A DNA stretch of 64,000 nt, from positions 40,726 to 104,725 of the forward strand of contig JAHHHC010000022.1 of assembly GCA_019359515.1 (NCBI GenBank), read 5' to 3'. The position numbers and the translations under genes were made by a program. The stretch comes from Desmonostoc vinosum HA7617-LM4 (GTDB taxonomy: Bacteria > Cyanobacteriota > Cyanobacteriia > Cyanobacteriales > Nostocaceae). Positions 5,790-29,873 of this stretch are shown here, in pieces. A model generated the notes under the pieces. That model searched no databases and was not told where the DNA came from. It saw only the letters and a list, made by a program, of their open reading frames with translations. Numbering within the stretch: position 1 is the first letter of the stretch; every line of letters starts with the position of its first letter.

Positions 5790-5888
5790 GGTGGCAGATA
5801 AAGTTTTAGGCAATGGGCAGCTTGTGTCCCTTCGGGCTTAACCATTTTATCTTTAGTTCTCAATCATTGGCCACCAATGAAGATAGTA

Positions 5889-6053
5889 GACTTCTTGCAA
5901 AAATACTTGAACCGTCAGAGACTCAAGTCTCTGCCTAATAGCAAAAGTCCGTTGAAACGGACTAAAAATACTGTTATTAGTCGGTTGAAACCGACTTGAG
6001 TTATCAGCCAGAAAATTTATTTTCTGGCGAGTATCCGACTTATGCAAGAGGTC
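5889..6053. mobile_element. MITE-like element with four hairpins, copy A
   Basis: The 165-bp element is flanked by TA on both sides (5887-5888 and 6054-6055). Its ends are inverted repeats containing TCTTGCA (left GACTTCTTGCA, right TGCAAGAGGTC). Inside are four hairpins in a row: GAGACTCAAGTCTC, AGTCCGTTGAAACGGACT, AGTCGGTTGAAACCGACT, and GCCAGAAAA paired with TTTTCTGGC. The copy at 27744-27917 has the same layout in the opposite orientation with different but still paired stems. No coding capacity is evident. Mobility is inferred from the ends and TA flanks, as in Tc1/IS630-type elements. Confidence 0.7.
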
Positions 6054-6886
6054 TAGTGAAAGAGAACAGGGAACAGGAGAAACTCAGCTACCCACTTTGA
6101 AAGTGGGGTTTCAACCTAGGCTGTTGACTTTGTTGGTTTTTAGGCGATTTTGCGGAAAATTATTCGTGTTCTTTTTTGTTTGTGGAAAAACGGCTGTTCC
6201 AGCCGTTTTTCCACAAAAATAGTCAACACACTTTCTGCATGAACCCTTATGGGCAAAAGAGTACAAAGTTTACAGCCTAGTTTCAACCTATACTCACAGT
6301 ACAAGAATTTTTTTGCGCCAGTTGTGGGCAAGGTTTTAAAGCTTGACTGTTTTCGATCAAGTAAAAAGCACCTTGAGAAGCTGGCGGCTTTGGTCTCTAC
6401 TGATATTTGATTGCTGGCTCTTAGCAAAGAAAATTACAACTGACATCTAACTACTGATAGTAGACAATCGCTTCTGTCATATGATATGACTTGTCCATTC
6501 AGTGCATTTTTTTACTTAATATCAAAATAATTTGATTACATAAAATGTATATACGAACATCTTGTTATTGGCAATTTCATTCGAGGCACATAACAAACTA
6601 AAATTCATAAATTAAGATCAAATAAATTCGCAAGTGGGAGAACAATCAACTATCCTATTTTAATCGCTTTGGTAAAGTCTTTCTTTGTGAAAGCTAAGTG
6701 AAAGAGTTTCTAGCTCTCTGCTCTAAAATCAAGGTGAAAATTAACTGATTACCGCTCAATCTGCGTAAATAAAAATTCAATAACTTTGATTTCTGCGAAT
6801 TTGCGACAGTAGAGATAAGGTAGCTAGTAGTTCAGCTTTAGATATTAAGACAAAAGAGGAGCCAAAATCAATGGAGAAAAATAATA
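6054..6886. other. Long intergenic region without a convincing gene
   Basis: The stretch between the hairpin element and the next gene is A+T-rich. It holds a CCCACTTTGAAAGTGGG hairpin near 6091-6107, the perfect 18-bp palindrome at 6179-6217, and two related blocks with CCTAGGCTGTTGACT and ACAGCCTAGTTTCAACCTA. A 95-codon minus-strand reading (6140-6427) is open but crosses the palindrome and looks non-coding. Otherwise nothing is seen. Confidence 0.6.
6179..6217. repeat. Perfect 18-bp inverted repeat with 3-nt loop
   Basis: The arms TTTGTGGAAAAACGGCTG and CAGCCGTTTTTCCACAAA are exact reverse complements around TTC. The loop is too short and the structure too perfect for chance. It has A/T runs in the stem rather than a free T tract after it, so it could be a terminator read in either direction or the core of a repeat element. 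No adjacent gene ends here. Confidence 0.75.
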
Positions 6887-27482: not shown

Positions 27483-28128
27483 TAGTCATTAGTTAATGTT
27501 GAATGTAGCAATACTTCACCAAAAAAAGAGTATGAAGCGATAGGGTGTTCCGTAGTAAAGTCATTGTCTCTTACAACGACAATCCAAAAACCATTCTCCA
27601 GCCCATGCTCGATATCTTATCACCACTACAATCCCTATTAAGTAACTACGCATAAATATTTAGACATTTTGCCATACGACGAAAATCGCCTATAGGACTC
27701 ATATTTGATTTGGTGAAAAAACTCCGTATACCTTCTTACCTTAGATCTTGCACCTGCCCAATCTCCCGCCAGAGAATAAATTCTCGCTCTTATTAGGTCA
27801 AGTCCACTTAAGTGGACTAAAATCTCTGCTTTTTGTGAGATTTAGTCCTCTTGAGAGGACTTTTGCTATTAGCCATAGGTTAGAAACCTATGGGGGTTTT
27901 TGGGACTGGTGCAAGATATCAGTTACCCTACTCTTCACTCCCTACTCCCTGCCTACGCAAATAACTTCATGAATCAAGTCAGATTCCTATAGTTATATAA
28001 GTTTCGTAGTAAGGACTTTATTCCTCGAATATGAAAGCATTAAAGTACTTACTACCAACTATTAAAACTTTGGTGATAAACCAATAAGTAGGTGGACACA
28101 ATTTAGTCCTTCTACTTAGAAGGGCTAG
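27483..28128. other. Repeat-containing region between fmt and the EPS operon
   Basis: The 646 bp hold the four-hairpin element (27744-27917) and A+T-rich flanks. A plus-strand frame of 74 codons through the element is not a gene. Nothing else is seen. Confidence 0.6.
27744..27917. mobile_element. MITE-like element with four hairpins, copy B
   Basis: The ends are inverted repeats with ATCTTGCACC (left) and GGTGCAAGAT (right). Inside, in order, lie GAGAATAAATTCTC, AGTCCACTTAAGTGGACT, AGTCCTCTTGAGAGGACT, and CATAGGTT paired with AACCTATG. Read in reverse, copy A (5889-6053) has the same order and the same linkers (GCCAGA, TTTTGCTATTAG), but different stem bases. Compensating changes point to selection on pairing or to a shared folded form. 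Confidence 0.7.
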
Positions 28129-29556: not shown

Positions 29557-29873
29557 GACTCTGATTTCCCCTGTTTGTAGAATATTTGCTGAATTATTTT
29601 TGTAGTAAATAATTCAATCAAAGAACAACAAAACTAAGCTTTTATGCATTTAAATTGCACATTCACTTTTCACATGGCAGAATTTTTATCAAGATAATCC
29701 TCTGCAAAATTTGATTTTTTACTCAAAATTAAAGTCCGCTAATATCGACTGAAAGCAAAATTTTAGTCGGTATTAACAGACTTCGGTTAATCAAAAAACT
29801 TTAGTAAAAGAGACTGGGTATTGGGTATTAGGTATTAGATATTTTTCCTAGTCCCCAGTCCCTAGTCCCCCCT
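29557..29873. other. Spacer inside the EPS cluster
   Basis: The 317 bp are A+T-rich with a GGTATTGGGTATTAGGTATT run and CCCCAGTCCCTAGTCC units near the end of the upstream gene. The spacer could hold a secondary promoter for the last gene; no gene is seen. Confidence 0.4.

Follow-up and report, generated by a model that had tools for sequence, protein, structure and literature searches.

A four-hairpin core carried by cyanobacterial MITEs with IS5-, IS4- and IS701-like ends, a possible reusable structural passenger

Copy A, one of two related elements in the 64,000-nt stretch of Desmonostoc vinosum HA7617-LM4 DNA analyzed here (referred to as the window), represents a 167-bp MITE with inverted ends and a target duplication matching those of the IS5 family. 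The four-hairpin core harbored between these ends has also been found on IS4- and IS701-like ends, so copy A would, on balance, appear to carry a reusable structural passenger. The predicted reason for its retention is the folded shape of the core, and the passenger would act, or be maintained, at the level of DNA. More tentatively, it can be envisaged as a folded DNA module common among cyanobacteria, a passenger independent of any particular transposase, which rides on IS5-, IS4-, IS701-type and other ends. Strand switching within hairpins would diversify its stems, and the module would be retained since its fold aids the carrier. The features of both elements are collected in Table 1.

Table 1. 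Elements, target duplications, ends and hairpins in the window (position 1 is the first letter of the window)
Feature	Position	Strand	Basis and remarks
Copy A, complete IS5-type MITE with four-hairpin core	5888..6054	+	167 bp; exact ends and length
Left target duplication AGT of copy A	5885..5887	.	flank comparison
Right target duplication AGT of copy A	6055..6057	.	flank comparison
Left inverted end of copy A, AGACTTCTTGCA	5888..5899	+	12 bp; same end type on longer transposase-bearing elements
Right inverted end of copy A, TGCAAGAGGTCT	6043..6054	+	12 bp
Four-hairpin core, copy A	5911..6031	+	covariance model R1, 120 bits; copy A is among the 6 model-building sequences
Hairpin 1, copy A	5916..5933	+	fold
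Hairpin 2, copy A	5946..5963	+	fold; inverted centre in 4/73 copies
Hairpin 3, copy A	5979..5996	+	fold; inverted centre in 21/73 copies
Hairpin 4, copy A	6007..6028	+	fold; inverted centre in 9/73 copies
Copy B, complete MITE with IS701-like ends and the same kind of core	27740..27922	-	183 bp
Target duplication GTAA of copy B	27736..27739	.	flank comparison
Target duplication GTAA of copy B	27923..27926	.	flank comparison
Four-hairpin core, copy B	27765..27896	-	covariance model R1, 114.9 bits; copy B is among the 6 model-building sequences

The first-pass annotation of this DNA had reported two copies in opposite orientation, sharing TCTTGCA ends, the linker TTTTGCTATTAG and the order of the four hairpins. 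Inspection of the sequence confirmed both the places and the orientation, and all of the shared traits are indeed present in copies A and B; the linker occurs once per strand within the window. At the same time, the common motif TCTTGCA conceals two distinct inverted ends, AGACTTCTTGCA in copy A and CTGATATCTTGCACC in copy B. Both copies are far more stably folded than their shuffled versions (z of -8.5 as RNA and -7.2 as DNA for copy A, -8.0 and -7.6, respectively, for copy B). When the window was scanned with the covariance model, copies A and B scored 120 and 115 bits, and the next-best places 22 and 12 bits. The former of these two weak matches (29700-29812, E 0.002) is possibly a decayed copy.

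The draft assembly of the home genome comprises 94 contigs (7.2 Mb) and could affect hairpins; the copy totals given for this genome are lower bounds. A search with copy A returned at least 40 near-full matches with 96-100% identity, and at least 80 complete type A copies were recovered overall (73 of 167 bp, 6 of 166 bp and one of 173 bp). Identical 3-bp flanks were recorded in 74 of the 80 copies, in 66 of these as ANT; flanks identical over 4 bp or more were seen in none. A 1-bp duplication, considered for type A as well, was dropped as position counts displayed A-N-T on both sides. Of 13 incomplete matches from the type A search, two are truncated A copies (L336, L380), the rest representing type B, type C or other sequences. 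Unoccupied sites were sought among the retrieved loci and in the window using flanks joined minus one duplication as queries (80 A copies and one B-type element). Eighteen of the 81 joined flanks matched an unoccupied paralogous place across the junction, the alignment being ungapped in seven cases (e.g., 98.8% over 83 bp), although some of these matches are repetitive sequence. Copy A represents a young MITE.

The partners of the type A ends were found in relatives, where three elements, 902, 929 and 923 bp long, have such ends, each flanked by a duplicated ATT. The 923-bp element encodes an intact IS5-family transposase of 277 residues (NCBIfam IS5_4, 175 bits at a cut-off of 140; Pfam DDE_Tnp_4), and in the 902- and 929-bp elements the transposase reading frame is in pieces. 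Presumably, the 3-bp ANT duplication suits the ISL2 subgroup of IS5. In the home genome, no autonomous partner with A ends was found, and none of the ORFs adjoining five unpaired A ends looked transposase-like by eye. The home genome yielded four DUF4096 matches; of the three examined, two possess other ends and no ends were found for the third. Two further pairs of A ends in one locus (L437) enclose no recognizable transposase and lack a duplication. In one relative (G009), many contigs stop ca. 114-130 bp inside an element with A-type ends (L414-L419, L421), as if an active multicopy IS broke the assembly.

Collectively, copy A displays the 3-bp ANT duplication of an IS5-family MITE together with the other hallmarks of a MITE: inverted ends bordered by duplications, numerous copies along with unoccupied sites, and the ends of an autonomous IS. 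The earlier suggestion of a mobile element has hence been borne out by the at least 80 complete copies, their target duplications, the paralogous empty sites and the autonomous partners in relatives.

The ends and the interiors of these elements do not form a fixed combination. At the loci L076-L102 of the home genome, A-type ends (AGACYTCTTGCA) are found on MITEs of 57-363 bp whose interiors are of many unrelated kinds. Since interiors differ under the same ends, it is probably the ends, not the core, that define the transposase requirement; families of ends and families of interiors appear to reassort. An element of B type (L042) has a right end, TGCAAGATGTCT, which is half way to an A end and comes without a matching duplication. 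TCTTGCA is common to the A ends (5888-5899) and the B ends (27908-27922) in spite of their respective IS5- and IS701-like partners; this overlap could make a switch between end types easier.

Type B ends point to another kind of transposon. Identical 4-bp duplications border 11 of the 13 complete type B copies in the home genome, and IS701 is known to make duplications of 4 bp. One relative (G002) harbors a 1388-bp IS with B-type ends and 4-bp duplications in four of its five copies, another (G065) a 1467-bp IS with such ends and no exact duplication. The transposases of both are nearest to IS701, albeit below the curated cut-off (best scores of 52.8 and 50.5 against 170 bits), so they are referred to here as IS701-like.

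Type C MITEs, mostly of ca. 205 bp with the ends CATTGGTGTCAACTTAA, contain the core as well and occur in the home genome and in several relatives. Among 50 of them, the duplication was exact over 9-10 bp in 18 and had one mismatch over this length in 10; two had shorter exact duplications (8 and 6 bp), and in 20 none was detected. Seven IS of 1454-1458 bp with C ends were found in G002 (the 9-bp duplication being exact in one, with one mismatch in three and absent from three), and the protein encoded by one copy belongs to the IS4 family of transposases (185 bits against a cut-off of 115). No autonomous C partner was detected in the home genome by an exact 17-mer search, and C ends located 2117 bp apart in G005 (L407) enclose no recognizable transposase. 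Model R1 did not detect the core, at E 0.01, in any of the A, B or C partner loci examined. A, B and C represent three end types carrying one four-hairpin core, with ends matching at least three kinds of transposon.

Further end types were suggested by a scan for ends plus duplications, which was positive in 28 of 153 core elements vs. 5 of 459 with exchanged right flanks; in a few of the 28 positives (e.g., L276, L172, L299), the pair detected is the outer stem of the core or a C end in shifted position. In the other 125 of the 153, this strict scan found nothing. Three Nostoc loci (strains CHAB 5715 and 5836) feature CAGGGCTATTTCATTCT ends with duplications of 9-10 bp. Two single cases are suggestive, namely GGGAGCATCCCAAAT ends with an 8-bp duplication in Fischerella sp. 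PCC 9431 and GCTACCGTGTACAC ends with a 9-bp duplication in the relative G003. A compact core with two inner hairpins apparently fused and a C-type end nearby was encountered in an Oscillatoriales MAG (L164, ca. 6380-6472).

The core itself is a unit followed by its inverted copy: CCCGCC, a hairpin, GGCTAATAGCNNA and another hairpin, then a spacer (13 to 32 bp in 85 elements) and the same arrangement inverted. It is closed by outer CCCG/CGGG and inner CTAATAGC/GCTATTAG pairs. The loops conform to TNNA in 327 of 340 cases (85 elements, one strand each), with TNAA prevailing among the loops of the left half and TTNA among those of the right. An inverted partner lies within 250 bp of 87 of the 108 units from 80 loci in named genomes; of the other 21 units, eight were inspected, and some of them look solitary, some being decayed pairs.

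The covariance model R1 was built from six representatives (types A, B and C plus one further group) and comprises 42 pairs. At E 1e-8, it matched 56 of the 80 genomes in the set of relatives and 40 of the 244 genomes representing the phylum, both sets including the home genome; many of the positive genomes hold tens of copies. When 84,980 species genomes were scanned with a pattern, at least 106 stretches were found, and all 80 of the matches listed belong to cyanobacteria from several orders; R1 recovers 74 of these 80 loci at E 1e-5. Eight pattern matches in viral contigs were taken as chance, none of them matching R1 at E 0.01. Plasmids and phages gave no blastn match to copy A. Rfam 15 had no match in the window at the gathering score, the best sub-threshold hit attaining 25.7 against 50 bits.

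The first-pass annotation had also ascribed the complementarity of the stems to selection for folded structure. Alignment A2 comprised 150 of 209 matches, with both strands of many elements; the per-element counts keep 85 elements, one strand each. Covariation of the stems is strong: in 135 distinct rows, which include both strands of many elements and are hence not independent, the alignment being fitted to structure, 97.2% of the cells are paired, as compared to 79.2% in shuffled and 27-45% in slid controls. Two-sided changes affect 30 of the 42 pairs and 969 cells vs. 279 after shuffling.

The picture is different in closely related copies. The 73 type A copies of 167 bp, on which the counts of loops and stems are based, contain 19 one-sided stem changes and no two-sided ones; therefore, instant templated repair is not seen in these youngest copies. 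Stem sites of type A also vary less than non-hairpin sites (19/4964 vs. 59/6643, Fisher p 0.0008). Fourteen type C copies within 26 differences of the consensus exhibit 15 two-sided and 26 one-sided stem cells, with one partly divergent copy accounting for three of the 15; in hairpin 4, a block of three pairs differs as a unit in four of the 14, without intermediates. In part, stems thus do drift uncompensated in young copies (one- to two-sided changes of 19:0 in A and 26:15 in C), a pattern that the annotation had named as evidence against its reading, whereas across species the two-sided changes dominate.

Another trait of the hairpins is the inversion of their centres, scored when the centre was the exact reverse complement of the commonest centre dinucleotide. 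There are 34 inverted centres in the 73 A copies (21 in hairpin 3, 4 in hairpin 2, 9 in hairpin 4 and none in hairpin 1) as compared to five other centre changes, 34 not being a number of events because inversions can be shared by descent. All four combinations of the orientation of hairpins 3 and 4 are present, so either the inversions recurred or recombination reshuffled them. The 14 C copies show 11 inversions and 10 other centre changes, nine of the latter in hairpin 2. Wobble-type mismatches make up just 36 of 2550 hairpin cells (GT 27, AC 9), other mismatches numbering 50; in structural RNAs, GU pairs are usually far more numerous. Since loops invert and wobble-type mismatches are rare, the covariation need not mean a transcribed RNA. 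The claim of selection on the folded structure therefore stands as regards the strong covariation of the stems; as regards its cause, templating or selection at the DNA level fits these observations as well as selection on RNA does.

Under the passenger reading, copy A would be moved in trans by an IS5-family transposase, which would need the short ends alone, the same ends being found around MITEs with other interiors. When single-stranded, either strand of the core could fold into four short DNA hairpins. The arms of a hairpin could then template each other, and the strand switching would invert loops and could change both arms at once. The weakest step of this scheme concerns the retention of the core across end types, for which the folded DNA would have to help the MITE to persist or move under any transposase. 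Several observations speak against the passenger reading: the one-sided stem changes of the youngest copies, the gene context given below, which is much alike for MITEs combining the same ends with another interior, the 10 centre changes of type C that are not inversions, the 125 core elements negative in the strict scan, and the exact duplication around just one of the seven C partners. In addition, the loop polarity (TNAA on the left, TTNA on the right) is kept across the family while random flipping alone would erase it; therefore, selection, or a rarity of flips over long times, is needed. The excess of GT over AC mismatches in the four hairpins (27 vs. 9) fits RNA too, though it cannot be read since the strand was chosen by a score favoring GU.

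Alternatively, the core could work as RNA. Transcripts reading through the element would then contain four hairpins stabilizing or ending the message, or recruiting an RNA-binding protein, so the insertions would be less harmful and the core would be kept. The strong covariation and the near-universal TNNA loops with their polarity are in favor of this scenario, as is the finding that 3' ends constitute 52 of the 77 gene ends neighboring the core. However, the context is similar around MITEs that combine these ends with other interiors (24 of 37 neighboring ends are 3' ends). By gene arrangement, 18 of 39 core-bearing A copies are situated between convergent, 15 between tandem and 5 between divergent genes, with one unclassified; for 20 same-end MITEs with other interiors, the figures are 8, 7, 2 and 3, respectively. 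No core-specific placement bias was seen in this comparison; the core hence gives no sign of a terminator-like role of its own. Moreover, a unit with its inverted copy folds alike on both strands, which is unusual for an RNA gene, the wobble-type mismatches are few, and no Rfam family reaches its gathering score. A role as RNA is accordingly considered unlikely, though not negligible. Still less likely is that the core is a pure by-product without function, its stems arising and being renewed only by template switching during replication and its ends gained as abundant MITEs happened to nest and recombine. Such an origin would agree with the frequent loop inversions in several combinations, with the three-pair block changing together in type C and with template switching as a source of hairpins and loop inversions, as stated in PMC8794818. 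It is at odds with the conservation of linkers and loop polarity across many species although loops flip, and with the recurrence of the same core on several end types.

The remaining two readings concern the mode of movement. In a REPIN-like system, an inverted pair of tagged hairpins would be moved by a Y1 (RAYT-like) transposase, the terminal inverted repeats being secondary. The organization of the core into inverted pairs of tag-plus-hairpin units with a short spacer, and the proximity of an inverted partner to most of the units, resemble such a system, but the target duplications of 3, 4 and 9 bp and the matching DDE insertion sequences make it very improbable. Neither GTAG nor CGTC is present at the foot of the hairpins, the conserved tag in the alignments being CTAATAGC, and the conserved linker contains no GTAG tag. 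The assignment to Tc1/IS630-type MITEs, initially inferred from TA flanks, can practically be abandoned and is refuted for copies A and B. TA does literally flank 5889-6053 on both sides; nevertheless, it is not the duplicated unit, which is AGT, because the A and the T are split between the 12-bp inverted end and the 3-bp duplication. TA was not found as the duplicated unit of either A or B copies: the former have 3-bp ANT duplications (74 of 80 copies sharing 3 bp) and an IS5-family partner, the latter 4-bp duplications and an IS701-like partner.

A MITE is commonly regarded as the shrunken version of a single insertion sequence; Nezha is a cyanobacterial MITE. Copy A is akin to IS5-derived MITEs in its short inverted ends, 3-bp ANT-type duplication, lack of coding capacity and ends common to longer elements with an IS5 transposase. 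It departs from them in its interior, which is not a deletion remnant of an IS (the partners examined contain no core) but a structured core shared across transposase families. Abundant miniature elements have been documented in cyanobacteria, e.g., 147 MITEs with predicted secondary structure in Anabaena sp. 90 (PMC3542288) and the Nezha elements cited in PMC3733652 and PMC10969869. In this abundance they resemble the core-bearing MITEs; the descriptions consulted mention neither covarying stems nor a core common to several end types. Cyanobacterial REPs have been described as well (GTAG-12, -15 and -16 repeats; PMC3733652). As far as these accounts go, REP/REPIN sequences share with the core the tagged hairpins, often in inverted pairs, and the high copy number, and the core differs by having CTAATAGC as its tag and two hairpins in each unit, by its DDE-type ends and by the duplication of its target sites. 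Template switching yields loop inversion and concerted stem change, according to PMC8794818; both phenomena are shared with the core, but the loop inversion described there is rare and occurs in rRNA, whereas in the core it frequently distinguishes mobile-element copies that are otherwise nearly identical. Overall, the portions of the open literature on cyanobacterial repeats and MITEs consulted (PMC3733652, PMC3542288, PMC4390886, PMC10969869) deal with MITEs and REPs and mention no structured core shared between transposase families.

Since one folded interior is common to elements with the ends of different transposase families, it is the interior, not the ends, that represents the conserved part. 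The many natural copies combine stem covariation with frequent loop inversion, making the choice between RNA selection and DNA strand switching testable. This combination also calls for caution in the discovery of RNAs based on covariation.

A second repeat is situated immediately to the right of copy A (window ca. 6116-6240). Its ends read AGGCTGT..ACTTTGT, and it contains an inner AACGGCTGTTCCAGCCGTT hairpin. At the loci L048/L050, a copy of this repeat breaks a B-type core, with an apparent duplication of ca. 10 bp.
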